A stretch of DNA of 64,000 nt from a virus. This document shows positions 1,502-18,354 of this stretch, piece after piece (within the stretch, counting starts at the first letter, position 1; each line of letters opens with the position of its first letter). The stretch spans positions 1 to 64,000 of the IMG/VR virus record IMGVR_UViG_3300042965_000128; one strand, 5' to 3'. Both the position numbers and the translations under genes were made by a program. The notes under the pieces were generated by a model. It saw only the letters and a program-made list of their open reading frames with translations. It had not been told where the DNA came from and searched no databases.

Positions 1502-1546
1502 ATGAGATTTATGAGGATGATTAAGATTAAAGGAGGTGTGATATGA
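1502..1546 (+). CDS. Possible 14-aa leader peptide
   Basis: A 14-codon frame (start ATG 1502, stop TGA 1544-1546) runs through the ribosome site of the next gene and ends overlapping its ATG at 1543. The arrangement would couple translation of the restriction-modification gene to the leader. There is no clear ribosome site of its own, so it may be coincidence. Confidence 0.25.
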   Translation: MRFMRMIKIKGGVI

Positions 1547-4500: not shown

Positions 4501-4659
4501 TATAAGATAGGCGCTGTTCAAGTAATGAAGAAGTTTTTAGAAGGGAGGAAGGGGAGGAAGCTGGATATTTCGGAAATCGAGCATTATATCAGGATGGGGA
4601 GTGCGGTGTGGTTGACAATCCAGCTGCAGAATGAGATTAAGAATATTGATTTTGATTGA
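1543..4659 (+). CDS. Type IIG/ISP-like restriction-modification enzyme
   Basis: A single 1038-residue chain that appears to combine DNA cleavage and N6-adenine methylation. The N-terminal part has a PD-(D/E)xK-type nuclease signature: Asp69 in a PDF context, then Glu83-Ala-Lys85. Residues about 200-310 are a helical linker. The methyltransferase core has motif I (LLDPCAGT, 366-373) and motif IV NPPY at 487-490. The C-terminal 400 residues would be the target-recognition region. No helicase domain and no separate specificity subunit are seen, which fits type IIG rather than type I. Start ATG 1543 follows AAAGGAGGTG. In a phage it may protect its own DNA while attacking competitors. The exact subtype is inferred. 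Confidence 0.85.
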   Translation: MKRKSDDVRAKLLNCYFGEINRIWSRGGYREESFYYLLKQLIEECSKVLGLSGIGVVISPSASTGGSPDFRVDRDGVIVGYMEAKLPGEDLSRLEDSEQIMRYRNTFPNFILTNFSKFILYRNGECVDVVDLGFRSGGRGSGDMYDVSKVDLFFGLMDKFLSFEVPKITDSNVLARDLAKRTRWLVELLRKEFLEGNRDLRNVYEALKQDIDQDLSEEKFIDIYAQTVAYGLFAARMGMRGGNITRESAWRYIPAGIPVVREMFHLMSGPAFPESPGWVVDDMIGLLRNVDVGSILAQVRSAKWDEDPVIHFYETFLSAYNPEERERLGVYYTPLPVVMYIVRSVHRLLKERFGKEEGLAARDVTLLDPCAGTLTFVVQAIKQVYEELKRQRREGLMNSYIREHILQHFYAFELLIAPYVIGHFKVNMVLEDLGYRFREGERFQFYLTNALDMRELKQRSLLMGLIEEEKQAKRVKESVPILVVIGNPPYSFQSMKSEFIDGLMESYKEDVRGEKKLGVLEDNYIKFIRFAHWKIEQAGRGIIGFITNNSYLSGIIHRGMRRKLLETFDEIYILNLHGSSRIDERPPVGKKNENVFDIRQGVAISLFVKLENPLRGKRVYYADLWGSREEKYRYLSANDAGTTKWKRLRVDEFERRFKATRWGKKYPSGFNFFIPSSARLLPRYGNFWGLDEIFSEWGSGVITRRDALAIAFTKEELEDKIRFFADSGISDERIKERFGVKDTSEWSLRVARERVRHERIGELIREYHYRPWDFRYIYYSDSVVSRLSKDRMKHLDGSNVALVTSRKVEGDEEKGFFVTRIIGDIGMISPQCYYFPLYLSPVEGLEEPSFLITSERKVPNLNKEFVEALSNVLGKIPSSEDILGYIYGVFYSPVYGGRYREFLRMDFPRIPLPSNQDIFKRLSDIGRRLIRIHLLEFDEREGQFLQIGFPVVGENVVERVRYDRKGERVYINSTQFFDEVPEEVWEYKIGAVQVMKKFLEGRKGRKLDISEIEHYIRMGSAVWLTIQLQNEIKNIDFD

Positions 4660-4723
4660 AAGGAGATGGTTGAATAGATATGGGTTGATTTATAAGTTTT
4701 TGATATCAAAGTTTTAAAATCAC

Positions 4724-4752
4724 TTGACAAAGGTCAAATTTTTTGGTATAAT
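4724..4752 (+). promoter_or_regulatory. Consensus sigma-70 promoter P1
   Basis: A perfect -35 TTGACA (4724-4729), 17-bp spacer and perfect -10 TATAAT (4747-4752). The ATG of the next gene begins 7 nt after the -10, where transcription would start, so the mRNA should be leaderless. Sequence around it (AAAATYACTTGACAAAGGT) is nearly repeated at P2 (7949-7977). Confidence 0.85.
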
Positions 4753-4758
4753 AGGGGT

Positions 4759-4941
4759 ATGGAGATAAAAAATAAAAAAATTAACAGGAAATTTTTAGGA
4801 GATTGGATCCTGGTGAGTTCACTTGGTTTGCTGAGTGATAATGCGTATGTTGATTCTTCTCTAATTCCGGTTCGTGAGTATTGGAGAAAGTTGAAGGAAG
4901 TATTGAATAGTTTGGTTGAATTTTTAGATGGGGGTGAGTAA
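4759..4941 (+). CDS. Small protein (60 aa) from a leaderless transcript
   Basis: No family is recognised. ATG 4759 has no ribosome site and coincides with the predicted start point of promoter P1, so translation would begin on a leaderless mRNA. The N-terminus is very Lys/Asn/Ile rich and A-rich at DNA level, like the start of the short frame behind P2. The middle is mildly hydrophobic and the C-terminus acidic. Its TAA (4939-4941) overlaps the ATG of the next gene, so the two are probably co-translated. It may be a real product or mainly a device to deliver ribosomes downstream. Confidence 0.6.
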   Translation: MEIKNKKINRKFLGDWILVSSLGLLSDNAYVDSSLIPVREYWRKLKEVLNSLVEFLDGGE

Positions 4942-5438
4942 TGAAGATAAAGATAAAAGGTGTTTTGAATTGGACAATTGGCCAGCAGGGAGGGGTGGGT
5001 TATCCTCCTCTGCTGGTTAAAATTGGGAAGGGGAAGTGGTTGTGGGTGGAGGGGTCCCGTGACCATGGGGGAATTATCTGTGGAAAATGTTCAGAAGAGT
5101 TTGGGAGAGAAGTGGCTTGCATCAGGGAAGCTGTTCCTCTACTGACGAGGCAAAATCTGAAGGTAGGAGATTGGGAGTATATCACATGGGAGGAGTTTAA
5201 GGTTATGGTAAAAGAGCAATTTGGAATAAATGGAGAGAGTAATCTTACTCCTGATGAGTTGGCTGTGAAGAAGTGCCTGGAGGCACGATTAAGCTTGTAT
5301 GAGTTGAGAAGGGCAATTGATCTGCATGTTGAGTATGAGAAGAAGATAGATGAGGTCGTGGAAATGCTAAGGAGATTATCACAGGAGTGTTATCGAGGAA
5401 AATTTAAGGTTAGAATTAAAAATAAAACAAGGAGGTGA
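4941..5438 (+). CDS. Unknown protein, 165 aa
   Basis: No family is recognised. Residues 1-65 look beta-rich and contain a C-x2-C pair (about residues 47-50, ICGKC), possibly metal-binding. Residues 95-150 are helical and charged, and the tail is basic. The start overlaps the upstream stop (TAATG). The DNA carries a stem at 4982-4988/5010-5016 (CCAGCAG/CTGCTGG) shortly after the start and a smaller one at 5273-5277/5282-5286, features shared with other genes of this block. Second gene of the P1 block; probably early and regulatory or host-directed by position only. Confidence 0.7.
   Translation: MKIKIKGVLNWTIGQQGGVGYPPLLVKIGKGKWLWVEGSRDHGGIICGKCSEEFGREVACIREAVPLLTRQNLKVGDWEYITWEEFKVMVKEQFGINGESNLTPDELAVKKCLEARLSLYELRRAIDLHVEYEKKIDEVVEMLRRLSQECYRGKFKVRIKNKTRR
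4982..5016 (+). other. Hairpin just inside the 5' end of a gene
   Basis: CCAGCAG (4982-4988) pairs with CTGCTGG (5010-5016), with further G-rich/C-rich pairing possible inside. It begins about 40 nt after the start codon at 4941. Confidence 0.45.
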
Positions 5439-5442
5439 TAGG

Positions 5443-6294
5443 ATGGTAGTAACAAGGCAGGAGAGGTTTCCTTTGGCAGGGTGGTTCCTCTACTGGAACT
5501 GCCCTGAGGGGAGGGTGAGGTGGGAAGATGTTGAGAGGGTGCTATGTTCAAGGGGAATTAAGGTGTTGCGAGCCAGCGGGAGGAGGTTTGTTGAGGATGT
5601 GCTGCAGAGGTTTAAAGAGGAAGTTGATTTGGTATGGCGAGTTGTGAAGGAAGAAACGGATGGTAGAATTTTTTGGAGGTTTTATAGTGGTAGGGTGAAG
5701 ATCAAGGATGAGCTAAAGGTGTCGGCTTGTAATTTCATAGTTGATGAGGATAGGAATGTCAAGGTTGAGAGGTTGCCGAACGGTTTAGAAGAGAAGTTTA
5801 GGAGGATTATTGATGAGTTGAAGGACACAGAGTCTGGTGGTTGGGTGAGCTGGCAGATTGTCAGGTATCTGCTTGATAATTTGTCAGCGATTCGTGTGAG
5901 GAAGGATGGAGGGTTGTATTTCGTTCCGGTTAGAAAGGAATCGGAGCTTACGGTTTTGGAGAATGCGATGAGGGAATTAGGATTTACGGTTTTCAAAATT
6001 GGTGTTATTGATGAGGAGAGGACAAGAGAATTGATCTGGAAGGTGCTTGCTGAAGAGGTTTCGGAGTTTGAAACAGAGGTTAAGGAATATGTGAAGAGGC
6101 TTGCGGATGGTGGCAGGTTCAAGGAGAGTGGTTTTGAATCGAGGCTTGAGGCTGGTAGGAAGCTGAGAGAGAAGCTTCTGGTTTATAAGGAGTATGGAGA
6201 GGAAGCTCTAAAAAAGCTGGCGGATTCGCTTGAGGCACTTGAGCGGGAGCTCCTTGCAGCGAAGTTGGAGTATGCTCTGCAGGAGGGGGAGTGA
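5443..6294 (+). CDS. Unknown protein, DUF6744-like
   Basis: 283 residues. The middle (about 130-165) reads as a segment ending in a GGLYFVPV-type motif after an AIRVR strand, which recalls the DUF6744 family of uncharacterised proteins; this is recognition from memory and not certain. Residues 190-283 are strongly helical and charged, likely coiled coil. No catalytic motif is seen. ATG 5443 follows AAGGAGGTGATAGG with good spacing. A 12-bp RNA stem with two G-U pairs lies at 5477-5506 soon after the start. It lies third in the P1 block, overlapping the next gene by TGATG. Confidence 0.65.
   Translation: MVVTRQERFPLAGWFLYWNCPEGRVRWEDVERVLCSRGIKVLRASGRRFVEDVLQRFKEEVDLVWRVVKEETDGRIFWRFYSGRVKIKDELKVSACNFIVDEDRNVKVERLPNGLEEKFRRIIDELKDTESGGWVSWQIVRYLLDNLSAIRVRKDGGLYFVPVRKESELTVLENAMRELGFTVFKIGVIDEERTRELIWKVLAEEVSEFETEVKEYVKRLADGGRFKESGFESRLEAGRKLREKLLVYKEYGEEALKKLADSLEALERELLAAKLEYALQEGE
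5477..5506 (+). other. Hairpin just inside the 5' end of a gene
   Basis: CAGGGTGGTTCC (5477-5488) pairs along its whole length with GGAACTGCCCTG (5495-5506) if two G-U pairs are allowed; loop of 6 nt. It begins 34 nt after the ATG at 5443. Confidence 0.5.
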
Positions 6295-6755: not shown

Positions 6756-7885
6756 ATCTGAAAGCAGTTGAAGTTACTGAATTGGAAGTTTTGAATCACT
6801 GGCTAGATAGGTTAGGGAGGATTTCGGAAGTTTTGGGTGATGGTGGGGGAATTGTTTCGGTTTTTGATCCGAAAACTGTGCGTTATAGAAAGGTTGTTGA
6901 AATAAGGAGAAGGGTGGAGAGTTATATTGAACGGTGGCTTCCTCGTTTTGAAGTGGATGAGGGCTCGGAGGTTGAGGATTTTATTCGGGAGCGAGTATTG
7001 GAGACATTTTCTGGGGAATGTTTGGCATTTTTGAGGAATAAGGATTTTGTTTGGACCAGAGGATCCCCGTTCGGTATAGATATCAAGTTGATAGAGGGTG
7101 GAGTTGACACTGGTTTTTCTCTTTTTGATGTGTGGCTTGAGTATTGTTTGAAGGATTATTGTCGTGCCTCAGAGCGGGATATAAGTGAGCTAGTGGCTGT
7201 TACTTTTCCGATTAAGAAGGCGGTTCATCTGTTGAGGAATCTGGTTGCCCCTCATAATGATGTGCTGAAGCGTTGTTTTTTGAGTTCCTTCGGTGAGGTT
7301 TGCTCAAAGCTTATAGAAGATGCGCTGGAAGGGAGAGGGGTGAAGGATGTTGAATGTGTGGATGTAACTGAATTTTTGAAAGATGTGATTCTGGAGTGGA
7401 TTAAGTGGTATATTTCGGAGTGTATTTTGGAGAGGATAGGAGTTGTGAAGGGCAAGAAGTTTGAAATGGTGGATGTATCCGTGATTGATAAGCTGGTTGA
7501 TTTGTTTCCTTATTTGTCGGAGTTTTTGATAAGGTTCAAGGAGATGGCAAGGGTTGGTTCATTAAGAAGCTTCAGGATTGTAAGTGTTAACTATGATGGG
7601 AAGGTGGTAATGAAGGCAATAGTTTTAGCGGGTGGTGAGGAAAAATCATACGGTGATTTTTTTGGATTTTTAACACCTGTAATTGAGAGCGTTCAGGAGG
7701 ATGAGTGGTGGAGTGGCTGTAGTTATGTTGCTGCTTATTATGAGCAACTGATCGATCAGATTGTAAAGAATTCTTATGATGAGGGGAGGCTGATACAGTT
7801 CTTTGATGTGCTCAAGGTTCATATTGATGAGCGCATAGAGAATTTGAAGAGGATTTTGTGTTCGGGTTTTGAGGTTGTAAAATGA
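6752..7885 (+). CDS. Unknown protein, 377 aa, TTG start
   Basis: No family is recognised. TTG 6752 overlaps the upstream TGA and follows GGGGAGGT (6739-6746) at good spacing; no better ATG lies nearby. The product is helical, rich in Val/Glu/Ile, with several Trp and Cys, no transmembrane segment and no enzyme signature that I can identify. It is the last gene of the P1 block. The 60 nt between its stop and promoter P2 show no T-tailed hairpin, so read-through into the P2 block is expected. Confidence 0.65.
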   Translation: MNLKAVEVTELEVLNHWLDRLGRISEVLGDGGGIVSVFDPKTVRYRKVVEIRRRVESYIERWLPRFEVDEGSEVEDFIRERVLETFSGECLAFLRNKDFVWTRGSPFGIDIKLIEGGVDTGFSLFDVWLEYCLKDYCRASERDISELVAVTFPIKKAVHLLRNLVAPHNDVLKRCFLSSFGEVCSKLIEDALEGRGVKDVECVDVTEFLKDVILEWIKWYISECILERIGVVKGKKFEMVDVSVIDKLVDLFPYLSEFLIRFKEMARVGSLRSFRIVSVNYDGKVVMKAIVLAGGEEKSYGDFFGFLTPVIESVQEDEWWSGCSYVAAYYEQLIDQIVKNSYDEGRLIQFFDVLKVHIDERIENLKRILCSGFEVVK

Positions 7886-7948
7886 GGTTTAGCTGCTTTG
7901 AAGTTGCTGAAGGGGTGTGTGGAGTTAAGGTCAGGTTTACAAAATTAC

Positions 7949-7977
7949 TTGACAAAGGTTTAGTTTTATGGTATAAT
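7949..7977 (+). promoter_or_regulatory. Consensus sigma-70 promoter P2
   Basis: A perfect TTGACA (7949-7954), 17-bp spacer and perfect TATAAT (7972-7977). The flanks nearly match P1. An ATG lies exactly 7 nt after the -10, as at P1, again predicting a leaderless start, here of an 11-codon frame leading into the ATPase gene. Confidence 0.85.
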
Positions 7978-7983
7978 ATACGC

Positions 7984-8019
7984 ATGAAAGTAAAAATAAA
8001 AAACAAGGAGGTGCAGTGA
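7984..8019 (+). CDS. Putative 11-aa leaderless leader peptide
   Basis: ATG 7984 is at the predicted transcription start of P2. The frame (MKVKIKNKEVQ) crosses the AAGGAGGTG ribosome site and stops at TGA 8017-8019, overlapping the ATG of the ATPase gene. Its A-rich, Lys-rich opening resembles the leaderless gene behind P1. It probably works as a coupling or loading peptide rather than as a product. Confidence 0.4.
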   Translation: MKVKIKNKEVQ

Positions 8020-9050
8020 TGACGGAAGTAGGGAGAAAAAATTATGGCCCGACCGTTACGGTCGGACAGGCGAAGAGGATTTTAGGCTCCCTGCTAAGCA
8101 AGGAGCCCAGGGAGGTTCCCTCTGTGTTTTTATGGGGACCTCCGGGTATAGGAAAGTCGTCTCTTGTAAAACAGGTTGCTGAAGAAAAGGGAATCGGGAT
8201 AATAGACCTTAGGCTTTCACTTCTTGACGCCATTGATTTGAGGGGGATTCCCTCTGTTAAAGATGACAAATGCTTCTGGACAAGACCTCCGTTCCTTCCA
8301 GCTGAGGGAAAAGGAATTTTATTTCTTGATGAACTTAACACAGCTTCCCCATCGGTTCAGAACAGCGCCTTACAGCTTGTGCTGGACAGAAGGGTAGGGG
8401 AGCATAAGCTTGGTGATGGATGGTATATTGTAGCAGCGGGAAATAGGAGAGAGGATAGCTCCCTCGTCTTTCAGCTCGCAGATCCACTTCTTTCGAGGTT
8501 TGTTCATTTAGAGGTTAATGTCAATGTGGATGAGTGGCTGAGTTGGGCGATTAGGAATGAGATTGACGAAAGGGTTGTTGGTTTTATTAAATTCCGTCCT
8601 GAGCTATTGCTCAGGGTGGAGTCAGGGAAGAGACAGAGCATTAACTTCCCATGCCCGCGGGCATGGGAGTTTTGTTCAAAGTTAATATCAAGCGGAGTTG
8701 ACCCGGTTATGGCGGCGGAGAGTTCGGTTGGTTTAGGTGCTGCGGCAGAGTTTGCGGGTTATATTGAGGTTTATTCAAAGCTTCCTCCAGTTGAAAAGGT
8801 TTTGAGTGGGGAGGTGGAATTTCCGCAGGAGTTGGAGCCGAGCGCAATATGTGCGCTTGGCGCATCCTTGGTGTCGCACGCAAAGAGTCAAAAGGATGTT
8901 GATAGGATACTGGAGATTGTGTTATCCTTTAAGAGAAGAGAGTTCGGAGTGTATATTTTGAAGCTTCTATATGCCAAAGACAAGGAGAAGGCCAAGAAGA
9001 GTTCGAAGTGGGATACTGTCGCTAAGCGCTATTTGGAGGTGATAATATGA
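8019..9050 (+). CDS. MoxR-type AAA+ ATPase
   Basis: 343 residues. Walker A is GPPGIGKS at 40-47, Walker B is ILFLDE at 100-105, followed by an NTASPSVQ helix. A sensor-1-like AAGN and an arginine-containing DPLLSRF segment follow, and residues about 200-343 form a helical lid and C-terminal domain. MoxR ATPases remodel proteins together with VWA-domain partners, and the next gene is such a partner, overlapping by 4 nt. ATG 8019 is chosen over GTG 8016 because AAGGAGGTG ends 5 nt upstream. The gene holds at least five strong inverted repeats and is richer in C than its neighbours, suggesting different origin or selection on RNA structure. Substrate unknown. Confidence 0.9.
   Translation: MTEVGRKNYGPTVTVGQAKRILGSLLSKEPREVPSVFLWGPPGIGKSSLVKQVAEEKGIGIIDLRLSLLDAIDLRGIPSVKDDKCFWTRPPFLPAEGKGILFLDELNTASPSVQNSALQLVLDRRVGEHKLGDGWYIVAAGNRREDSSLVFQLADPLLSRFVHLEVNVNVDEWLSWAIRNEIDERVVGFIKFRPELLLRVESGKRQSINFPCPRAWEFCSKLISSGVDPVMAAESSVGLGAAAEFAGYIEVYSKLPPVEKVLSGEVEFPQELEPSAICALGASLVSHAKSQKDVDRILEIVLSFKRREFGVYILKLLYAKDKEKAKKSSKWDTVAKRYLEVII
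8049..8107 (+). repeat. Two inverted repeats inside the ATPase gene 5' end
   Basis: CCGACCGT (8049-8056) is followed after one base by its perfect complement (8058-8065). Then GGCTCC (8085-8090) pairs with GGAGCC (8102-8107) with inner TGC/GCA pairing. A weaker AGGGA/TCCCT pair follows at 8109-8121. Confidence 0.55.
8598..8668 (+). repeat. Hairpin plus 22-bp perfect palindrome in ATPase gene
   Basis: CCTGAGC (8598-8604) pairs with GCTCAGG (8609-8615) around a 4-nt loop. At 8648-8667 the 20-base sequence CCCATGCCCG CGGGCATGGG is a perfect palindrome, extended by T/A to 8647-8668 and by a further ACT/AGT pairing after a one-base bulge. A palindrome of this length within codons is very unlikely by chance. 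Confidence 0.65.
8837..8861 (+). repeat. 10-bp hairpin inside ATPase gene
   Basis: GCCGAGCGCA (8837-8846) pairs with TGCGCTTGGC (8852-8861) with one G-T pair and a 5-nt loop. Confidence 0.5.
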
Positions 9051-10459
9051 AAAAGGTTGGGAGAATATGTATTGAAAAAGCGATATCAAATCTCCTTCTG
9101 GATTCACCCTTTTTCGGAAGCTTGATTTTGGAAGCGGAGCTGAAGGAGACTGAGGAAGTTCCTACGGCGGCGGTTGACGGAAGGGGAAAAATCTTTGTCA
9201 ATCCGAGATATGTAGAGAGGCTTCAGGTTTCGGAAGTTCAGGGTTTGCTGGCGCATGAGGCTTTACATCTTGCTCTTTTGCACTTCGTGAGAGAGAGTGG
9301 TAGAGATAAGCGGAGGTGGAATATAGCAGCCGATTTGGCGGTCAATTCGATATTGGCGGAGAAGCGTTTCGCATTGCCGCCGGGAGGGATTTTCCCGCGG
9401 GATTTCGGATTTGAGGATGGTTTAAGCGCTGAAGAATATTATCGTCTGCTTGAGAAGTTACCACCGCCTCCACAGCCTCCTCCGGGTGGTGAGGGTGAAG
9501 AAGAAGGTGAGGGTGGTAATGGTGGTGGAGGTAGGAGGAGGAGTGAGGGGTTTGATGAGCACAGGATTCCTCCACGAGCGGGTTCTGGTAATGGAGGTGG
9601 AAAGGAGGATGGTTCGGAAGGTGGGCAATCGGGGAAGGATCCTCATCAGAAGGATGATAGTGGTGAGGGTAGAGATGTAGGAGAGAGACATGGTGAGGGT
9701 GGTAAGAAGGATGGGGGTAAGGGAGGAAATGAGCATGGTGATGGGGAGGATGGGAAAAAGGATAAGGATAGAGATGGAGTTCAGGCAGATAATGAGTATG
9801 AGGAAAGGGGACTTACGGAAGAAGATATCAGAAAAATTGAGGCTAAGTGGAAAAGGGCGGTTGCAAGGGCGATGTCGATTAGGAAGAGAGGGGAGCTTCC
9901 AGGTTGGTTTGAGCAGATGATTTGTGAGTTATTTGAACCAAAGCTGAACTGGAGGTTCATACTCAGAGAATTTATTGCGGACAATTGTGTGATATCTGGT
10001 GTGGATTGGACGAGAAGGGATAGGAGGTTCCAGGATGTGTATTTACCTTCACGGAGAGAGAAGGTAGTTAAGTTCGCAATAGCGGTTGACACTTCCGGTT
10101 CGATTTCGGATAAGGAGCTCGCGGCGTTTTTCTCGGAAGTGAATGCGATTTTAGGTTCAAATGGAGCATACGATATAATTTTGATACAGTGTGATGCGGA
10201 TATTACGAGTGTGAAGGAAATTGCTTATCCAGATACAATTGATTGGAGTGAGATCAGGATTGTTGGTAGAGGGGGAACGGATTTCAGGCCGGTGTTCAGG
10301 TATCTTGAGGACCATAATGACAATAGGCCGCTGGTGTATTTTACTGACCTTGAGGGTGTTTTTCCTGAGGCGACACAGCGTAAGGTTTTGTGGGTTGTGG
10401 TTGGTAGAAAGAAGGAGGTTCCCTTTGGTGAGGTGGTGGAACTGGAGGTGGAGTCATGA
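9047..10459 (+). CDS. VWA-like protein with metallopeptidase domain (MoxR partner)
   Basis: 470 residues. The N-terminal domain has a zincin motif HEALH (70-74) followed by a WNIAADLAVN segment (91-100), as in the DUF2201 putative metallopeptidase/VWA-like family. Residues about 140-250 are a low-complexity Gly/Glu/Lys/Asp-rich linker. The C-terminal domain is VWA-like with a MIDAS motif DTSGS at 348-352 and later conserved Asp and Thr residues. Such proteins act with MoxR ATPases, whose gene is immediately upstream and overlaps by 4 nt. They probably form a chaperone-like or protein-remodelling pair; peptidase activity is not proven by the motif. ATG 9047 lies within the upstream stop region after GGAGGTG. 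Confidence 0.85.
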   Translation: MKKVGRICIEKAISNLLLDSPFFGSLILEAELKETEEVPTAAVDGRGKIFVNPRYVERLQVSEVQGLLAHEALHLALLHFVRESGRDKRRWNIAADLAVNSILAEKRFALPPGGIFPRDFGFEDGLSAEEYYRLLEKLPPPPQPPPGGEGEEEGEGGNGGGGRRRSEGFDEHRIPPRAGSGNGGGKEDGSEGGQSGKDPHQKDDSGEGRDVGERHGEGGKKDGGKGGNEHGDGEDGKKDKDRDGVQADNEYEERGLTEEDIRKIEAKWKRAVARAMSIRKRGELPGWFEQMICELFEPKLNWRFILREFIADNCVISGVDWTRRDRRFQDVYLPSRREKVVKFAIAVDTSGSISDKELAAFFSEVNAILGSNGAYDIILIQCDADITSVKEIAYPDTIDWSEIRIVGRGGTDFRPVFRYLEDHNDNRPLVYFTDLEGVFPEATQRKVLWVVVGRKKEVPFGEVVELEVES

Positions 10460-10947
10460 GTGAGACCGTGAATGTGAAGAGATTTAGTTTTCCTATTTTG
10501 AGTTTGCGGGATTCGGATCTGGTTATATCAGTTTTAGCGGAATGGGTGATTTTGCGGTTGGAGGAGCTTGTATTCTCAGAGAGGTTAAGTTTTAGTTTTC
10601 GGGAGGGGTCTGTGTGTTACGAGGTTAGTAAGAGGGAATATTATGCGTCTATAGAATATGTGGTTGAGGTGGATGGCAGGAAGGAATTGTGGATTAAAAT
10701 GGAGAAGGGGAAGGAGAGGGTGAGCAATTTTATATTAGGGGAGGGAGGGATAGGCCTTTTGCCGTTTGATGAGGTGGTTTCGAGGATTGAGGCGATGTTG
10801 AATAAGATTTCGGAAGCTGTGATTGCAGCTGATGAGGAAATGGGGCGTGTGAGGGAGGTGCTTGCGGGGGATTCTCGTTTCAAGGATGCTTTTAGTAGGG
10901 TATTTGAAAAAAGATTAGGGGTGATGAATGAAGAAGGGAGAAGTTAA
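10456..10947 (+). CDS. Small protein, paralog family A member 1
   Basis: 163 residues, no known family. Family A shows an N-terminal strand-helix (F.FPI.SL then a LV..VLA.W helix), a beta-rich middle, a helix with the pattern DEVVSRIE, and a C-terminal signature of RVREVL, a D.RF turn and FE.RL. This member matches the next two genes over its whole length. The ATG overlaps the upstream TGA (ATGA), linking it to the ATPase/VWA pair. Function unknown; by context it may be an adaptor or client of that pair, which is inference. Confidence 0.7.
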   Translation: MSETVNVKRFSFPILSLRDSDLVISVLAEWVILRLEELVFSERLSFSFREGSVCYEVSKREYYASIEYVVEVDGRKELWIKMEKGKERVSNFILGEGGIGLLPFDEVVSRIEAMLNKISEAVIAADEEMGRVREVLAGDSRFKDAFSRVFEKRLGVMNEEGRS

Positions 10948-11425
10948 GAAGGGAGAGGTCAGGAAATTTAGGTTCCCGATCGGCAGTCTGAGCAATGCAG
11001 GATTGGTGATGGATGTGTTAGCGGGATGGTTTGTTGAGACGCTGGAAAGGTTGTGTGAGGGGAAGTTTGCATTTGTTTGTTTTGAGGACGGTGTATCTTC
11101 GAAGTGGTATGTCAGGAGCAATCGAAATTTAGTTCACAGGGTTTATGAGTATGAAGTTATATGTGATGGTGACAGGTGGGTGGTGGTAGTATTGAGTGAG
11201 AAGGGTGATTGTAAGGAGTTTTATATTAGGGGTAAGAAAGTGATGGAGATGGAATTTGAGGAGGTGGTTTCGCAGGTTGAGAGTATACTGGGTGTGATTC
11301 GTGAGGCAGTTGAGGTGAGGGAGAAGGAGTCCGAGCGTGTTGGTAAGATTCTTTCGGAGGATGAACGTTTTGCAGATATATTAAGGAGAATATTTGAGTG
11401 CAGGTTGGGGGGTAACGATGGTTAG
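10928..11425 (+). CDS. Small protein, paralog family A member 2
   Basis: 165 residues; starts 20 nt inside the previous gene. After a Lys-rich opening it carries the family features: FRFPIGSL, a helix with VLAGWF, an EEVVSQVE helix and a C-terminal segment of ESERVGKIL, DERFAD and FECRLG. Full-length alignment with the genes on either side indicates tandem duplication followed by divergence. Confidence 0.7.
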   Translation: MKKGEVKKGEVRKFRFPIGSLSNAGLVMDVLAGWFVETLERLCEGKFAFVCFEDGVSSKWYVRSNRNLVHRVYEYEVICDGDRWVVVVLSEKGDCKEFYIRGKKVMEMEFEEVVSQVESILGVIREAVEVREKESERVGKILSEDERFADILRRIFECRLGGNDG

Positions 11426-11441
11426 GAAAGGAGATGAAGTT

Positions 11442-11900
11442 ATGAAGCGGGATGATTATATGATATCGATTTCGTTATTGAAGGATAAGAATTTAATAGT
11501 CAGGATGTTGATGGAGCGTGTTTATTTAGCTGCTAAAAAGTTATTGACAAAGGAGATGCGGTTAGATTTTGTGGTGAAGGTGCGTGGTGGTTCGAAGGAG
11601 GCGCGTGTGCAGTTGAGTAGTTTGCGTCCGGGTCAATTGCAGCTGGTTATGACGATAGGTGATGATGTGTTGACTTTTTCGAGGAGTGAAGGTGGGATGA
11701 GTTTAGCCTTGAATAATAGGGATATTGAGTTGTATACTTTTGATGAAGCGTTGGTGGTTGTGGACAGTGCGGTTGAGTTGCTTGAGGTTGCGCATGTTCT
11801 GGTTGAAAAGGAGTCGGAGCGTGTGAGGCGTATTTTGTTTGAGGATGATCGGTTTGCTGGGGTTCGTGATTTGCTTGTTTCTGAAAAGTTAGAGCGATGA
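11442..11900 (+). CDS. Small protein, paralog family A member 3
   Basis: About 152 residues. ATG 11442 is chosen because AAAGGAG lies about 8 nt upstream; ATG 11418 is an in-frame alternative. It keeps the family A plan: an N-terminal ISISLLKDKNLIVRML helix, a beta-rich middle, a FDEALVVVD helix and a C-terminal segment of ESERVRRIL and DDRFAG. It overlaps the next gene by ATGA. Confidence 0.65.
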   Translation: MKRDDYMISISLLKDKNLIVRMLMERVYLAAKKLLTKEMRLDFVVKVRGGSKEARVQLSSLRPGQLQLVMTIGDDVLTFSRSEGGMSLALNNRDIELYTFDEALVVVDSAVELLEVAHVLVEKESERVRRILFEDDRFAGVRDLLVSEKLER

Positions 11901-12343
11901 GGGCGCTGGTAGGAGAGAGTATGGCTCATAAGGTGAGTGATGGAGGGTTGGTTAATGTGATTGAGGAGCTTGTGGTTGAGGCGAGGTTGGGTGATATGAG
12001 TATGGGTTGGGTATTTGAGCAGTTATTTGGGAGGGAATTTGAGGTGAGGAGAAGGTTTACGCTGGATGACTTGCGTTTGGCATTTCCTCTGCTTTATGGT
12101 TGTGCTGTTTGGAAGCCCGTACTGGGAGATATGGTATCTTCTCCGGAGCTTGTATGTGTGTTTTATAATGAATACAGGGATGTGCTGGATTTGGTTTTTC
12201 TGGATGGGAGGAGGTATTTTGTAGGTGAGGTGGTATTTCCTGTTGACCTGGATGGGTTTGTGCATCTGTGTCGGGAGTTTTTAAAGTTTATAGAATGTGT
12301 GGGAAATGAGTCTGTGGAATCTGGAGGGTTGAAATGCTGTTGA
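11897..12343 (+). CDS. Small protein, paralog family B member 1
   Basis: 148 residues, no known family. Family B is defined by an N-terminal helix (L.VEARL), then WVF.QLF, a basic stretch, L.DLR and a P-L turn, followed by a beta-rich half and a terminal helix. Related genes are at 12461 and 14422. ATG 11897 overlaps the upstream TGA; ATG 11921 behind GGAGAG is an alternative start eight residues later. Confidence 0.65.
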   Translation: MRALVGESMAHKVSDGGLVNVIEELVVEARLGDMSMGWVFEQLFGREFEVRRRFTLDDLRLAFPLLYGCAVWKPVLGDMVSSPELVCVFYNEYRDVLDLVFLDGRRYFVGEVVFPVDLDGFVHLCREFLKFIECVGNESVESGGLKCC

Positions 12344-12459
12344 GAAGGAATTTGGTTATGGTTTTTGATGCTGGTAATATGGTTTTGATGTTTCTGCATG
12401 GTAGAATTTTTTTGATCAGGATTAAGGAGGGATTATGGAAGTTTCAAAAGGAGGTGTGA
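12334..12459 (+). CDS. Small hydrophobic ORF, 41 aa
   Basis: A 41-codon frame fills the apparent gap between the two family B genes: ATG 12334 overlaps the end of the upstream gene, has GGAGGG about 6 nt before it, and ends at TGA 12457-12459, two bases from the next ATG. The product is basic at both ends with a hydrophobic Val/Leu/Met/Phe centre that could sit in a membrane. The tight fit supports it being real; no homologue is recognised. Confidence 0.5.
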   Translation: MLLRRNLVMVFDAGNMVLMFLHGRIFLIRIKEGLWKFQKEV

Positions 12460-12460
12460 T

Positions 12461-12883
12461 ATGGGTGTATTGCCACAGAGGTTGAGGGATAAGCTGGAGA
12501 GGCTATTGGTTGAGGCGAGGCTTGAGGGACTCGATTTTAAGTGGGTTTTTGGTCAGCTTTTCAGGATGGGGTTCGATCTTGCATGTGATCTTCGGTTGAG
12601 TGATTTGAAGAATTATTATCCTTTTTTGTGGAGAAATCTCAAGCCTGAAGGGTTCAGGTTGCCGGTTTTTATTGATGAGCCTCGGTGGAGGGCCCGGCTT
12701 GATAACGTGGTGTATGATCGTGTGAGTGGGGATTGGTATTTGAATGTTATTATTGAATACAGGAGATATAAGATGAGGTTAGATTTTCCACGTGAAGAAT
12801 CTGAGTTTATGCGTGTATGTGAGGACTTTTACAGGTTGGTGATGGAGTGTAGTCGGGTAGGTAGTTGGGTGTTGCGGGGGTGA
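12461..12883 (+). CDS. Small protein, paralog family B member 2
   Basis: 140 residues. ATG 12461 follows AAAAGGAGGTGTGAT. It has the family B order: KLERLLVEARLEG, KWVFGQLFRMGF, LSDLKNYYPFLW, then a beta-rich segment and a final helix with an EFMRVCEDFYRL pattern. Function unknown. Confidence 0.7.
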   Translation: MGVLPQRLRDKLERLLVEARLEGLDFKWVFGQLFRMGFDLACDLRLSDLKNYYPFLWRNLKPEGFRLPVFIDEPRWRARLDNVVYDRVSGDWYLNVIIEYRRYKMRLDFPREESEFMRVCEDFYRLVMECSRVGSWVLRG

Positions 12884-12884
12884 G

Positions 12885-13295
12885 ATGCGGGATGTGATTT
12901 TGAGTCTGGAGATGGATCTGGAGAGGGTGAGAGGTGCGGGTAATTTGTTGTGTTTGGTTGATCGGAGGGATGTGTGTGTTTTTTTGATTGATGAGGATGG
13001 TAGGTTTGTGCACGATGTGTTGAATTTCCGGTTTGATTTTGAGGTGCCTGTCCTCGTCAGGGTTTGGTTTTATTCCTCTACGGAGGGTGAGTTTGAGGTG
13101 CGGTTAGGGAATGGTTTGTTGCATGGTATGTTGAGTGGTGAGCGGCTGGAGGTGATTAAGCGGATAGTTGGTTCGGCGTGTGGTGATTGGGAGAGGGAGC
13201 TGGCGCGTATTCGTGAGTATGTTGTGAGTTCGGGTCGGCTGGATGGGGCGTTGAAGTGTGTATTTGAAGGGGTGCTTGAGCGGAGTGTGGAATGA
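12885..13295 (+). CDS. Small protein with family A-like C-terminus
   Basis: 136 residues; ATG two bases after the previous stop. The N-terminal two thirds are beta-rich with repeated LVDRRDVCVFLIDE-type strands. The last 30 residues (ELARIREYV, SGRLDGALK, VFEGVLERS) match the C-terminal signature of family A, suggesting an exchanged or shared tail. No enzyme motif is seen. Confidence 0.65.
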   Translation: MRDVILSLEMDLERVRGAGNLLCLVDRRDVCVFLIDEDGRFVHDVLNFRFDFEVPVLVRVWFYSSTEGEFEVRLGNGLLHGMLSGERLEVIKRIVGSACGDWERELARIREYVVSSGRLDGALKCVFEGVLERSVE

Positions 13296-13807
13296 TTAAT
13301 GAGTATAAGGTCAGAGTGTTGTTTGATTTACCGCATGATATCAGGCGTGTGGTGGATGCGTATGTTTTGCAGCGGTTGATGTTGCTTATTAGGAAGGGGA
13401 AGCCTGAGCGTTTCGATGATATTAAGATTGTGGGTTTTCCTGGTGAGATCATTGCGAATCTGGTGTTTAGTCTTGATGAGGGTAAGAGGGAGGGGTTGAG
13501 GCGTATTTTGTCGGGTGATTGTTTGGTTTTGGAGTATAGTGATGTTTTGAGCAGGCGTAAGGTGGATTTAGCATCGGTTGTTGATGAGGCGGATGAGTTA
13601 TATGTTCGTATACTGGGTAGTGAGCCCTTGCGTTCGTTGTTTTGTCTGGTGAAGTATGAGGGAGGAAAGGATAGTATCCTCGCATTTTTTGAGCTCATTG
13701 ATTTGTTTGTGCATGTGGTTAGTCTTGAGGCGTTCAAGTATAATCTTGACATAGTTGATTCGCTGGTTGCGGTTTTGTGTGGTCAGGATAAAGAGGTTCC
13801 AGTATGA
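13292..13807 (+). CDS. Small unknown protein, distant family A relative
   Basis: 171 residues; the ATG overlaps the upstream TGA. The opening (YKVRVLFDLPHD, then a VVDAYVLQRLMLL helix) parallels the N-terminal strand-helix of family A, but the C-terminal signature is absent. The rest is helical. It sits in the overlapping gene chain, and its function is unknown. Confidence 0.6.
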   Translation: MINEYKVRVLFDLPHDIRRVVDAYVLQRLMLLIRKGKPERFDDIKIVGFPGEIIANLVFSLDEGKREGLRRILSGDCLVLEYSDVLSRRKVDLASVVDEADELYVRILGSEPLRSLFCLVKYEGGKDSILAFFELIDLFVHVVSLEAFKYNLDIVDSLVAVLCGQDKEVPV

Positions 13808-14343
13808 AGGTATATGATGGGTACCTGATTCGTGATTTTCTTGAGGAGCTGACTGGTGATATTGAGCGGTATGTGAGTATAAGGCTCAGGGAACTTGATG
13901 ATATTGTGAGGGGTAGGAAGAGGGGTTCGGTTGTGTTCACTGATGATCGATTGGGTGTGTTTGGTATGGAGAGGGTGTATGTGGAGTATGAGTATGCTGG
14001 TGGTTGTGGCGTGAGGTGGAAGGGGATGGCTTATCCTTCTAACGTTGTGTGGGCGGTGACTGAAAGGCTTATTCAGGAGTTTGTGAAGGAGGAGGATAGG
14101 AAGGGGATAAATAATGTTATAGGCTTTTTGCTTTGGTGTGTTAATAATGGTCTGGAGCTGGGTAGAGTTTTAGGTATATATAGGGAGCGGATAGATTTAT
14201 TTGTGTCGTTGGTGGCGGAGGCGCTTAGAGTGGAAGAAGAGGTAGTTGAGGGGTTGAGGCGTGAGTATGAGGAAACGGGTATGTGGAAGGAGGTTGCCTC
14301 AGCGAAGGTGGAAGAGGTGCTTGATAGGTCTGTGCGGGGATGA
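13804..14343 (+). CDS. Small unknown protein, family A-like tail
   Basis: 179 residues; ATGA overlap with the previous gene. The N-terminus (LIRDFLEEL, DIERYVSIRLREL) resembles family A. The last 35 residues (GLRREYEETG, VASAKVEEVLDRS) resemble the shared C-terminal signature. The middle is helical with a GFLLWCVNNG segment. It is the last gene before the strong inverted repeat at 14347. Confidence 0.6.
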   Translation: MKVYDGYLIRDFLEELTGDIERYVSIRLRELDDIVRGRKRGSVVFTDDRLGVFGMERVYVEYEYAGGCGVRWKGMAYPSNVVWAVTERLIQEFVKEEDRKGINNVIGFLLWCVNNGLELGRVLGIYRERIDLFVSLVAEALRVEEEVVEGLRREYEETGMWKEVASAKVEEVLDRSVRG

Positions 14344-14346
14344 ATT

Positions 14347-14399
14347 CGTGCCGGATGAGTAGAGTTTTTCCTCCTTGTTTTGCTCGCTCATCCGGCACG
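14347..14399 (+). repeat. 13-bp perfect inverted repeat between genes
   Basis: CGTGCCGGATGAG (14347-14359) pairs perfectly with 14387-14399 around a 27-nt T-rich loop. It occupies nearly the whole gap between two genes. No T-run follows the stem, so it is not a standard terminator. An operator, an RNA-stability or processing hairpin, or a recombination site are possible. Confidence 0.6.
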
Positions 14400-14421
14400 T
14401 GAATATGATTAGGGTGCCGAT

Positions 14422-14841
14422 ATGAGTGTATTGCATGCGGGTAGGATTGTTAATCGTGTGAGGAGGTTGCTCGTTGAGGAAGTGCTTGAGTGTGATGGGA
14501 GCAATGTTTTTGCGAATGTGCTGGGGAGGGTGGTGCGACATGGGTTCAGGCTTAAAGATGGTTTATCGGTTGATGATTTGCGGAGTAGATATCCAGCGCT
14601 GCATGCGGCTGTATGTGATGACTTGTGTTCGTTGCCCGAGGGTGTGCAGTTGGTAGCGGTGGAGCGGGTGGAGGGATTTTTTGGTGTGTTGTGGTATTTT
14701 GTTTTTCTCGGTGAGGGTGTGCGTTATCATCTGCCGATGGTTTTGCCTTCTGATATGAAGCAATTTAGTGCGCTTGTGCTGGAATTTTTGCGATTTCGTG
14801 CGGATAACAGGAGGTTGAGGGGTAGTTGTGGACAGCGGTGA
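14422..14841 (+). CDS. Small protein, paralog family B member 3
   Basis: 139 residues. It has the family B plan in diverged form: RVRRLLVEEVLEC, NVFANVLGRVVRHGF, LSVDDLRSRYPAL, then a beta-rich part with a GVLWYFVFLG strand and a helical, basic tail. ATG 14422 follows a weak AGGGTG. Function unknown. Confidence 0.65.
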   Translation: MSVLHAGRIVNRVRRLLVEEVLECDGSNVFANVLGRVVRHGFRLKDGLSVDDLRSRYPALHAAVCDDLCSLPEGVQLVAVERVEGFFGVLWYFVFLGEGVRYHLPMVLPSDMKQFSALVLEFLRFRADNRRLRGSCGQR

Positions 14842-14867
14842 TGCTGGAGTGTCTGGGTTGGTAAGTT

Positions 14868-15410
14868 ATGTTGCATCTTGAGCAGGAGATAGATCGTATT
14901 ATTTTTGAGGGATATCTGGAGGGGGACTATGTTGGGTTGGTCACGAGGTCGATTGTGGAGATGAGAAGGTATTTGAAGTTTGTTTATAAGATTATTCATG
15001 GTGAGGTTGTTGTGGAGATTGGTAAGGATACATCTATGTATGAGGCGGTGATGGATGTAGCTGGTTGTCTGGAGGGGACATCTTTTGATGGTGTTTCTAA
15101 GAAAGCGTTGAATTATCTGAAAAGGGTTCGACGTGATCTGGATAAGGATCATGAAAAGATTTTGTATAGGTTGAAGCGGAGGTGGGTGTTAAGATGGCAC
15201 TTTTTCTTTTTGCACGATAATGGTTATGTGAGTCTATCTTTCTGGTTATTGCCCGCGAGTAGTTTGATTAAGAGTTATTATTTGGGCAGTCAGCGGAAGC
15301 GGCATTTTGTGATCAGAAGCGGATTGATATCGTTGAGGCATAATGAGAAGGCTGTGCTGGATTCATTTATGCGGGTTGTGCGTGATTTGAATGAGCGTGG
15401 TTGGCAATGA
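14868..15410 (+). CDS. Unknown protein, 180 aa
   Basis: No family is recognised. The N-terminal helix (HLEQEIDRIIFEGYLEG) loosely recalls the family B opening. The middle is basic and helical (85-115), followed by an aromatic-rich stretch. ATG 14868 has GG-rich upstream bases but no strong ribosome site. It ends overlapping the next small frame. Confidence 0.6.
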   Translation: MLHLEQEIDRIIFEGYLEGDYVGLVTRSIVEMRRYLKFVYKIIHGEVVVEIGKDTSMYEAVMDVAGCLEGTSFDGVSKKALNYLKRVRRDLDKDHEKILYRLKRRWVLRWHFFFLHDNGYVSLSFWLLPASSLIKSYYLGSQRKRHFVIRSGLISLRHNEKAVLDSFMRVVRDLNERGWQ

Positions 15411-15571
15411 ATACTGGGTGGACTGGGATTGAGGGTTTCAATGCTATATTTGTGGGGATGCCGGGACGGTATTTTGTAAGGGAGTGGGGTGAAGGCAGGT
15501 TGAATGTGAGCTGGTTGGAACGGATAGCTGGATATTATAGTGGTTGTAATGCTTGTTTCCTCGAAGTTTAA
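15407..15571 (+). CDS. Small ORF, 54 aa
   Basis: ATG 15407 overlaps the upstream TGA (ATGA), the same coupling used through this array. The 54-residue product contains several Gly and Trp and two Cys near its end (CNAC). No family is recognised. Support is the overlap and the in-frame length; it closes the P2 block. Confidence 0.45.
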   Translation: MNTGWTGIEGFNAIFVGMPGRYFVREWGEGRLNVSWLERIAGYYSGCNACFLEV

Positions 15572-15746
15572 TTAGGGTTTGAGGTGGAGTTGATTTCTGA
15601 GGTGCAGTGAGGTGACGACTCGTGTGGTTTGTTGTTGCTTCGGTTGCTTAATTTTAGAAAGTGGATAATGCTTGATTAAATTTTTTGAATTGGTTAAATT
15701 TTCGAAAGGAAAGGTGATAAGTTGAAGCAAACTTGATGGGATTGGT
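15572..15746 (+). other. 175-nt intergenic stretch
   Basis: No gene is visible. It is AT-rich toward its end. TTGATT at about 15672 with TTAAAT 16 nt later is a weak promoter candidate. It separates the small-protein array from the adhesin gene. Confidence 0.3.
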
Positions 15747-17123
15747 ATGGGTTATCGTTTTGAAGAGGATAAGGTTCAGCCTGTAGTAATTGTTGAGCCG
15801 AGGTCGGATGGTTTTTCTGCGTTTGAGCATGATGATTATGTGATAAGCACCTATGCTTATTATACCTCGTTACCGGGAGGGCAACGGCTGGAAATACCGT
15901 TTGTGGTGCCTGTGAGTTATTTTTATCCTGAGGTAGATCTTATGGTTGTTGGTCCGGGGAGTGGTGTGGATGAGTTGGTTCAGCCCTTTGTTGTTGATGA
16001 GGATAATGTGTATTCATTTGTGGTGCCATTTAGGGGTTTATCGGTTTTCACGCTGATTGATGATTTTGAGGGGTATGCGGATACTGGTGCGTTGCGTGCG
16101 GTGTGGGTTCCGAGTGATGTGGCGAATACGCCTAATACGCTTGTTGTTGGTGATTCGTTTGGTAGCAAGTTTATGCGTATACAGACGACGAAGAATAATT
16201 CGGTTGGTGATTCTGTGCGCAGGACTTTTAGTTCTGTGCAGGACTGGTCGCAGTATACTGGGGTTCGGTTTCGTGTATTGTGTAATACGAATGCTTTTAT
16301 GCAGTTTCGTATAATTGATGAGGCAGGTTCGATAGTGTATGTAAGTATACCGCAGTATGGGAGTGTAACGAGTGCATATTTTCCTTTTACATCTTTTACA
16401 AAGGTTGGTGCTAATTTTGTTGATTTGAGTCGGGTTCAGGCGATTGAGTTTTATTGTGCGAATGATTCGCAGGTGACTAGTCTTCAGGTTGATGATATAT
16501 ATGTGGTGCGTATGCCGAACTTGATTTTGAAGTATCAGCTGGGTGAGGTGCAGTTATCGCCCTCGTTTAATTTTGTGCCGCTTTTGTTTGATGATGGTTC
16601 AGCGTATAAGGAGCTGGTTGTTACTGTACTGGATGTGACGGGCACGGTGTTAGATATATCGTTTGGTGTTTGGGATAGGAGTAAGGTATTGGATAGGAGT
16701 AAGGTGTATGGTGTGCGTTTCTTTGATTTTAGTGAGCAGGGTTTTGTGGGTGTTAATAATATGTCTTCGTTGCGTGCGCGGGTTTTGTCAGGTGGGGTGT
16801 GGGTTGGACTGGATAAGAATGTTGCATTTATGTTGACATCGGAGTTGCGTAGCAGGTTGAAGCGGTTGTTGTATTATGAGGTAACCCCGAATAATTTTCC
16901 TATTGGTTCGGGCACTGTGTCTGGTTTTTTGGTGAAGGATGGGCGTGTGGTTCGTTCATTATTCAATAATCAGGTCGGTTTAAGTTTTTATCCGAAGGAG
17001 GTGTGTTCTGATTTGATAAGGGATGAGCGTTTTGTTGTTGAGCTATGTCCTTTTCAGCCGCTGGATAGGTGGGTTCTGTTGAATGTGCGTTTGAATTTCA
17101 GGGTTGAACGGAGGATAGAATGA
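15747..17123 (+). CDS. Adhesin-like protein with CBM/jelly-roll domain
   Basis: 458 residues. Residues about 92-260 read as a beta-sandwich carbohydrate-binding-like domain: DDFEGYADTGALRAVW, a region on ordered change in a bound state (FRVLCNTNAFMQFRI) and a closing SLQVDDIYVV strand, as in CBM-type domains of bacterial glycosidases. The flanks are beta-rich and Val/Ser/Gly-rich. There is no catalytic motif and no signal peptide, so a virion surface protein that binds host glycans is the best guess. ATG 15747 has only a weak upstream GGGATTGG. It overlaps the next gene by ATGA. Confidence 0.6.
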   Translation: MGYRFEEDKVQPVVIVEPRSDGFSAFEHDDYVISTYAYYTSLPGGQRLEIPFVVPVSYFYPEVDLMVVGPGSGVDELVQPFVVDEDNVYSFVVPFRGLSVFTLIDDFEGYADTGALRAVWVPSDVANTPNTLVVGDSFGSKFMRIQTTKNNSVGDSVRRTFSSVQDWSQYTGVRFRVLCNTNAFMQFRIIDEAGSIVYVSIPQYGSVTSAYFPFTSFTKVGANFVDLSRVQAIEFYCANDSQVTSLQVDDIYVVRMPNLILKYQLGEVQLSPSFNFVPLLFDDGSAYKELVVTVLDVTGTVLDISFGVWDRSKVLDRSKVYGVRFFDFSEQGFVGVNNMSSLRARVLSGGVWVGLDKNVAFMLTSELRSRLKRLLYYEVTPNNFPIGSGTVSGFLVKDGRVVRSLFNNQVGLSFYPKEVCSDLIRDERFVVELCPFQPLDRWVLLNVRLNFRVERRIE

Positions 17124-17788
17124 TAGAGTTGACGTGGGGTGAATTTAGGAATTTGATTCTGGCACATGACTTGTTGCGTTGTGTCAATTATGTAGATCTT
17201 GGTAGGTATTATTTGTTGTGGGTTTCGGTTGAGAATGTTTTATTCAGGTGTCAGGTATATAAGAATTCATTTGAGGCTTCTGAGTTTGAGGCGTTGCGTG
17301 ATAGGATCCCGGTTCAGGAGCGTTTTGATGAGGTTGGGCATAGGGTTATAGCGCGGGGTTTGGGTGTTTTGCCGGGTAATACGGTTTGGGCGGGTGCGAT
17401 GAATGGTCTGGATTTCAGGTTTGGTATTATTGCGGGTGTAGAGAACTTTTTTGATATGCAGCTGGATAGGGATAGGTTTTTGTGGGGTGGTCGCTACGTG
17501 ATAGTGGATGAAGCCGCGATAAATGTGAATGATTATATTGAGTTGAGTATAATTGATAAGGATAATGTGCTTGGGTTGTTTGATGTGTATGGTGTGCCAC
17601 CGGGTGGTTTTCTTGAGCTTAAAAAGTTTGTAAGGAAGTGGTGGGTGTATAAGACACCGGTATTTGAATTTGTGAGTGAGGATGCTACATATTTGCCTCA
17701 GGGTCTTTATATCAGGTGTGGGTATCGGAGTTTTGGAACGGTTGATAATACACTGTTATTTACACTTTACTTTTTTGAAGATGTTTGA
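17120..17788 (+). CDS. Probable virion or adhesin-associated protein, 222 aa
   Basis: No family is recognised. Beta-rich, aromatic and poor in Lys, like the preceding adhesin; the ATG overlaps its stop. Two Gly-rich turns (GLGVLPGN, YGVPPGGFLEL) separate strand-rich segments. By position and composition it probably belongs with the adhesin as a structural or attachment protein. Confidence 0.5.
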   Translation: MIELTWGEFRNLILAHDLLRCVNYVDLGRYYLLWVSVENVLFRCQVYKNSFEASEFEALRDRIPVQERFDEVGHRVIARGLGVLPGNTVWAGAMNGLDFRFGIIAGVENFFDMQLDRDRFLWGGRYVIVDEAAINVNDYIELSIIDKDNVLGLFDVYGVPPGGFLELKKFVRKWWVYKTPVFEFVSEDATYLPQGLYIRCGYRSFGTVDNTLLFTLYFFEDV

Positions 17789-17814
17789 TAAGGTTGAGAG
17801 TGTGAGGTTTAAAG

Positions 17815-17997
17815 ATGGCTGATAAGGTGGTGGTAGCAGTGGTTAATGCGAGTGGTGAGGTGGTGAAGGGTGGTGTGCAGGATGGTAAGATCGTGGGTGT
17901 TTTAGAGGATGCTAATGTTGAGAAGCGGAAGGTGGAGAGGAAAATAGATACGCTGATCAGTGAGGTGGTCAAACAAAGGACTGCTGGTAAGGGTTAG
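17815..17997 (+). CDS. Small protein, 60 aa
   Basis: ATG 17815. The first half repeats Val/Gly strand patterns (KVVVAVVNASGEVVKGG), the second is a charged helix (NVEKRKVERKIDTL). No family is recognised. It may be an accessory of the preceding surface proteins. Confidence 0.5.
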   Translation: MADKVVVAVVNASGEVVKGGVQDGKIVGVLEDANVEKRKVERKIDTLISEVVKQRTAGKG

Positions 17998-18114
17998 AGT
18001 TGATGGGTTGGAGAGATTTAAAATGTGGGGAATGTGGTTTAATTTAGGCGGAGATTTAATTATAGGCTCTATTTGATTTAAAATTGATTAGAGAAGATTG
18101 AAGGGGTGATAGTG

Positions 18115-18354
18115 ATGGCTGATAGAGGTCTTGAGGGCAAGATCAGAAGAGTTGATATTAAGTTGGATGGTGCGATATCTTATGCGAGGCAATCGCTTGG
18201 TGAACTTGATGATGCGATAGATGTTCTAAAGGTTCTTGTTTCTGCTGGTTATGTGAGTGGTGGTCGGGTGCGGAGGCTTGAGAGGCTGGCGCATGATTTG
18301 CATTCGGTCATTGAGAAGCTGGAGGAGTTTTCCGATGAGTTTATGGAATTTTGA
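18115..18354 (+). CDS. Small helical-hairpin protein
   Basis: 79 residues. Two amphipathic helices flank a turn LVSAGYVSGGRVRRL, the pattern shared by a dispersed set of phage genes here. ATG 18115 is chosen over GTG 18106 (AAGGGG about 8 nt upstream). Probably oligomeric coiled coil; function unknown. Confidence 0.6.
   Translation: MADRGLEGKIRRVDIKLDGAISYARQSLGELDDAIDVLKVLVSAGYVSGGRVRRLERLAHDLHSVIEKLEEFSDEFMEF

Follow-up and report, generated by a model that had tools for sequence, protein, structure and literature searches.

Do the small genes that follow a MoxR-VWA pair in a tailed-phage genome encode partners of that pair, or do they merely lie behind it? The question is raised by the IMG/VR virus record IMGVR_UViG_3300042965_000128 (71,233 bp), of which positions 1-64000, hereafter the window, carry genes for a MoxR-type ATPase and for a protein with metallopeptidase-like and VWA domains, trailed by an array of small, partly duplicated genes (Table 1). 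The pair itself is common in phages (MoxR matches in 842 phage records, VWA matches in 541), and it has already been proposed in print as a chaperone pair; what seems to be new is the set of partners. In jumbo phages it was described as a chaperone-cochaperone system fused to a metallopeptidase (PMC7824862), and N4 gp24 and gp25 are core genes of the N4-like phages (PMC4193335). No experiments on the function of the tailed-phage pair were found in the literature searched. An initial annotation of the locus had considered the whole module undescribed, which holds for the small proteins and not for the pair, since the phage MoxR-VWA-metallopeptidase combination is widespread and described (PMC7824862; PMC4193335).

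The pair was annotated correctly, as Pfam and PHROG matches place both proteins where they had been predicted. The MoxR gene starts at the ATG at 8019, behind AAGGAGG, the phrog_1297 and AAA_5 matches extend over the MoxR length and both Walker motifs are intact, and the VWA domain of the DUF2201 protein has a complete metal ion-dependent adhesion site (MIDAS; DTSGS, GGT, D). The two genes are adjacent on one strand and overlap by 4 nt (9047-9050), and the Walker motifs of MoxR and the motif residues of the VWA protein are invariant in comparison with the homologs of a second phage, G001, discussed below. Families, domain order and the position of MoxR, adjoining or near VWA, are those of the phage pair known from elsewhere (phrog_1297 and phrog_1314; N4 gp24-gp25; jumbo group 2.2), which mostly has no paralog array behind it, while the window has six duplicated genes of two new families. 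Many phage records annotate proteins of the DUF2201 metallopeptidase-like/VWA type as "HNH endonuclease", a name that they appear to owe to the PHROG label (phrog_1314); Pfam detects no HNH domain in the one of the window.

Coding base periodicity was observed in ten of ten genes from s1 to s10 and not in s11, so that ten of the roughly eleven small genes first proposed can be retained and the last is doubtful. The start-stop overlaps ascribed to them are present at VWA/s1 (4 nt), s1/s2 (20 nt), s3/s4, s6/s7 and s7/s8 (4 nt each), but the chain is broken by three gaps, at 12343-12461 (which a 41-residue open reading frame, ORF, may fill), 14343-14422 and 14841-14868. The genes from MoxR to s10 (8019-15410) likely constitute one operon with its own promoter. 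Pairwise Smith-Waterman alignments with shuffles, repeated genome-wide, resolve two families, A (s1, s2 and s3; z 7.6-22.9) and B (s4, s5 and s9; z 13.3-14.4), between which neither shuffle tests nor profile searches detected any relation; profile searches found no further member of either elsewhere in the record. The array is thus paralogous in part: a single family comprising all its genes was rejected, since A and B do not match and s6, s7, s8 and s10 match neither beyond noise. The C-terminal likeness between s6 and A (hhalign P 0.02 in a set of about 26 proteins) is weak, is not significant after multiple testing and does not establish kinship; for s7, s8 and s10 none of the libraries searched yielded a relative. 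Purifying constraint is seen on both families, pN (nonsynonymous) being below pS (synonymous) in every pair. The AlphaFold2 models are of moderate quality: that of family A (s2) combines one helix with a five-strand sheet and a long helical hairpin (predicted local distance difference test, pLDDT, 78; predicted template modelling score, pTM, 0.69), and that of family B (s5) has an alpha/beta arrangement with helices, a sheet of four strands and a last helix (pLDDT 78, pTM 0.74), the B model having no significant fold match in the PDB.

Table 1. Features of the MoxR-VWA operon and its control region (positions in the window; SW, Smith-Waterman; HMM, hidden Markov model).
Feature	Positions	Strand	Evidence
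Sigma-70 promoter, TTGACA-17-TATAAT, extended -10 (TGGTATAAT)	7949..7977	+	12/12 consensus match
Shine-Dalgarno AAGGAGG of MoxR (within AAAACAAGGAGG, 8000-8011)	8005..8011	+	Sequence; complements loop of hairpin 14347-14399
MoxR-type AAA+ ATPase, 343 aa, Walker A GPPGIGKS, Walker B ILFLDE	8019..9050	+	PF07728 (AAA_5) 1.4e-9; phrog_1297 1.2e-86
DUF2201 protein: N-terminal metallopeptidase-like domain (HEALH), low-complexity linker, C-terminal VWA	9047..10459	+	PF13203 (DUF2201_N) 4.6e-42; PF09967 (DUF2201) 4.7e-24
s1, family A, 163 aa	10456..10947	+	SW z 22.9 to s2, 8.5 to s3; HMM of A
s2, family A, 165 aa	10928..11425	+	Shuffled SW; HMM of A
s3, family A, ~160 aa (start 11418 likely, 11442 possible)	11418..11900	+	Shuffled SW; HMM of A
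s4, family B, 148 aa	11897..12343	+	SW z 13.9 to s5, 13.3 to s9
s5, family B, 140 aa	12461..12883	+	Shuffled SW
s6, orphan, 136 aa	12885..13295	+	Weak C-terminal likeness to A
s7, orphan, 171 aa	13292..13807	+	No Pfam, PHROG or NCBIfam match; no phage match
s8, orphan, 179 aa	13804..14343	+	No significant match in libraries searched
Hairpin, 13-bp perfect stem, 27-nt loop with CCTCCTTGTTTT (anti-Shine-Dalgarno), between s8 and s9	14347..14399	+	Unique stem
s9, family B, 139 aa	14422..14841	+	SW z 14.4 to s5
s10, orphan, 180 aa	14868..15410	+	No match in libraries searched
s11, doubtful 56-aa ORF	15401..15571	+	Without coding base periodicity

The best evidence that family A belongs with the pair, a hint drawn from a single sequence comparison, comes from G001 (= L010; 35.9 kb), whose MoxR and VWA proteins are 61% and 43% identical to those of the window and are directly followed by two family A proteins (L1 and L2, 164 and 188 residues), in the order MoxR-VWA-A-A; s3 aligns with L2 at z 10.5. 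Apart from this block, all that links the record to G001 is an endolysin (45%) and a 41-residue stretch at the N-terminus of a tail fibre, and the GC contents of the two differ (44.5% in the window vs 34% in G001). From its matches to a head protease (38300), major head protein (41629), tail sheath (48354) and baseplate wedge (59493), the window phage is assigned to the contractile-tailed phages. G001 has a T7-type head-tail connector and no tail-sheath match among ten proteins scanned, and is for this reason probably podovirus-like, with the reservation that it is a fragment. Since MoxR-VWA-A-A is common to two phages otherwise almost unrelated, the block seems to have been kept together, or transferred as a whole, among very different phages, as far as one comparison can tell. 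Family A was never found without the pair in its two carriers, the window and G001; the situation that would have spoken against an association, with most relatives carrying the small genes but lacking the pair, does not arise for A in its sole relative, where it lies directly behind the pair. It evolves faster than the pair, yet under purifying selection (dN about 0.39 and dS about 1.7 for the L1/L2 bodies).

The regulatory sequences add to this picture. The consensus promoter reported ahead of the pair is real (12/12, with an extended -10), and exactly two such promoters exist in the record, the other at 4724-4752; the two boxes are identical at 33 of 38 positions (near-identical stretches 4714-4752 and 7940-7977). 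The second one heads the operon just upstream, with ORFs at 4759, 4941, 5443 (DUF6744), 6291 and 6752. That two near-identical perfect promoters head both consecutive operons suggests one co-regulated block read by the host RNA polymerase, and the MoxR operon is probably expressed early. A 45-residue ORF at 7882-8019, which contains the promoter, is unlikely to be a gene. The explanation we tentatively prefer, possible rather than probable, is a host-promoter-driven and probably early MoxR-VWA remodelling operon with its own fast-evolving partners, which might be target adaptors.

Several observations weigh against this explanation. Family A was not found in the 50,697 phage records or the plasmids searched, which leaves G001 as its sole relative; when s3, A6, A7 and B were scanned against viral sequences, G001 alone was recovered, and family B had no relatives anywhere in the searches. 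Many phages, most of those examined, carry the pair without such an array. For the A model there was no significant fold match in the PDB and viral libraries, only a weak resemblance to some phage EL and PhiPA3 proteins that are uncharacterised, and the expression timing is deduced from promoter type and position alone. Also considered and rejected was the idea that the G001 paralogs keep a conserved docking tail at their C-termini: their genes, with widely differing bodies, end in 72 identical nucleotides including the stop codon (L010 13064-13135 and 13646-13717), and identity at the DNA level, with no synonymous change, indicates recent conversion or unequal exchange rather than selection. 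The completeness attributed to the module at first is unproven: relatives are known neither for B nor for the orphans, and most phages with the pair lack such an array.

Such observations leave room for an alternative nearly as likely as the partner explanation, in which the small genes form an ordinary early-gene island for host takeover or counter-defence that merely sits behind the pair and shares its promoter, its duplications reflecting an arms race and involving no interaction. Four of the ten array genes are orphans and B is without any relative, as could be expected of such an island, and a type IIG restriction-methylation enzyme is encoded just upstream of the two operons (1543-4659; 1038 residues, type IIG/ISP-like; PADLOC REase_MTase_IIG 5e-214; Pfam Type_ISP_C 2e-70). 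Tandem paralogs are moreover common elsewhere in phage genomes, including two pairs in this one, unrelated to the array (29588-31424 and 53678-55014; z 29 and 62). PADLOC defence models, run against MoxR, VWA and all array proteins except s6, s9 and s10, returned only P-loop-level IetA matches (E 0.0015 or weaker), and the array proteins showed neither a beta-propeller nor any recognised effector domain. What the island does not account for is family A directly behind the pair in two phages that are otherwise almost unrelated.

The same alternative draws on a survey in which paralogs next to the pair were counted and compared with random placement of the anchor within the same loci. Considering all loci (n = 31), 7 had such paralogs against 3.1 expected (P 0.012); leaving out the window gave 6/30 vs 2.8 (P 0.03), barely above chance, and leaving out also the loci noticed by eye gave 3/27 vs 2.2 (P 0.39). 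A general rule that tandem paralogs accompany MoxR-VWA is thus weakly supported, the excess being non-significant without the hand-picked loci, and we retain it as a lead only. The loci seen by hand were those of phiFa, PBS1, phage G, PA5oct and pRHOM17201. In Thermus phage phiFa (L064), ten paralogous genes of four families flank the MoxR and VWA genes at 7781-18177, and every local paralog detected in that genome falls within this region; in Bacillus phage PBS1 (L071; 20706-27363) the array consists of five genes behind VWA, and tandem paralog arrays also lie beside the pair in the Bacillus phage G (L076; 14293-18850) and the Rhodothermus plasmid pRHOM17201 (L062; 8353-9402), as do tandem paralogs in PA5oct. 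The arrays of phiFa, PBS1 and pRHOM17201 resemble that of the window in having tandem duplicated small genes adjoining the pair, but none of the array proteins of these three, of phage G or of PA5oct is detectably related to A or B, and the arrangement is parallel only.

Could A and B instead be clients, that is, virion or tail parts folded, assembled or trimmed by a MoxR-VWA chaperone? There are precedents: a role in virion assembly and processing was proposed for the jumbo-phage pairs (PMC7824862), the tail-development chaperones p618 (MoxR) and p892 (VWA) of the virus ATV act with virion proteins (PMC4124505), in roseophage RPP1 the homologs of N4 gp24/gp25 have virion protein genes nearby (PMC4193335), and the record of the PA5oct MoxR carries an electrospray ionisation tandem mass spectrometry (ESI-MS/MS) note. 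The ATV system is similar to the window in combining a viral MoxR and VWA partner with further virus-encoded partners (PMC4124505), although it has no metallopeptidase domain according to the jumbo-phage paper (PMC7824862), and its partners are virion proteins. None of the array proteins has a convincing virion-family match (there is only phrog_14592, E 0.004, for s2). The operon of the window has its own host-type promoter and is separated by about 23 kb from the genes for head and tail, which occupy about 38-62 kb, and the pair is common to a tail-sheath phage and a probable podovirus, whose virions differ. We consider the client explanation unlikely, and less likely than the early island. 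Still harder to credit, and in our judgement quite improbable, is that A and B regulate or inhibit the pair itself (e.g. as a peptidase switch) with copy-specific affinities: the apparent co-transcription and the conserved order with the pair would fit, but the need for many divergent copies and for unrelated families would be left unexplained.

In the preferred partner explanation, a MoxR hexamer and the DUF2201/VWA protein would form one complex. D, R and F are invariant in family A and make up a D-x-R-F turn predicted to lie between its final two helices, and the invariant Asp is a candidate MIDAS ligand; A, and perhaps B, might thus bind the VWA domain through it, by analogy with the rubisco activases, where the CbbO VWA is an adaptor whose MIDAS binds a rubisco surface carboxylate while the MoxR ring works (PMC4660213). 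CbbQ-CbbO likewise couples a MoxR motor to a VWA protein with a MIDAS but, unlike the window, has a host metabolic target, no reported HExxH domain and no small-adaptor family. The A and B copies would use their varied parts to bind different targets, to be remodelled by the ATPase or cut by the HExxH domain. Host or defence complexes would be more likely targets than virion parts, because of the host-type promoter and the separation of the operon from the late structural genes. Varying genes near MoxR and VWA are also known from the MoxR-vWA ternary conflict systems (bpMoxR and others), in which a varying third component is encoded nearby (PMC7159879), but the window MoxR scores below the PF20030 cut-off (21.4 vs 27 bits) and the array contains no detectable beta-propeller partner.

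The hairpin between s8 and s9 may connect both operons. It is the sole perfect stem of at least 10 bp in the record, and no 13-bp stem appeared in 20 shuffles. The loop sequence CCTCCTTGTTTT is exactly complementary to AAAACAAGGAGG, for which the + strand has two sites only, the ribosome-binding sites of MoxR (8000-8011) and of gene 5443 (5424-5435); among the AAGGAGG sites (n = 67), two instances were seen where 0.02 were expected. CCTCCTT has only two occurrences on the + strand and chance placement in the loop is therefore unlikely. The right arm nearly complements the s9 start (14412-14425). The element could be a translational feedback device acting on the two genes, which head their operons, or merely an mRNA processing hairpin. 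A duplex-energy scan of the loop did not single out the MoxR and 5443 sites, since several purine-rich sites bind it more strongly, Rfam gave no match, and an intrinsic terminator was rejected, as no T-run follows the stem. A wider proposal, in which one MoxR-VWA engine has exchangeable specificity subunits (the duplicated, diversifying A and B proteins) that each take it to another host target, has travelled as one unit between phages of unlike virion type and is tuned by the hairpin, is in our view unlikely as a whole.

As to the surroundings, the large ORFs of the window are almost all on the + strand. The DUF6744 protein upstream of the pair (5443-6294; 2.4e-13) was considered as a standard companion of it and rejected, as one of the 19 records searched has DUF6744 and none of the 18 other MoxR-VWA carriers does. 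The gene after the array (15747-17123) encodes 458 residues with a weak, below cut-off match to CBM_11 (carbohydrate-binding-module-like; E 0.002). Upstream of the G001 MoxR gene (L010 9805-9845), the palindrome TGTCAAAAATTTGACA occurs twice, one copy overlapping a TTGACA -35 box; judging from their sequence, these are likely repressor operators.

Taken at the level of sequence, the finding appears genuine and of moderate interest, a known pair being joined by a linked, duplicated partner family that is new. For a tailed-phage pair present in hundreds of phages, family A would supply candidates for the binding partners, for the docking residue and for the docking surface and, if the partners are adaptors, phages would have evolved a protein-remodelling machine with exchangeable adaptors.

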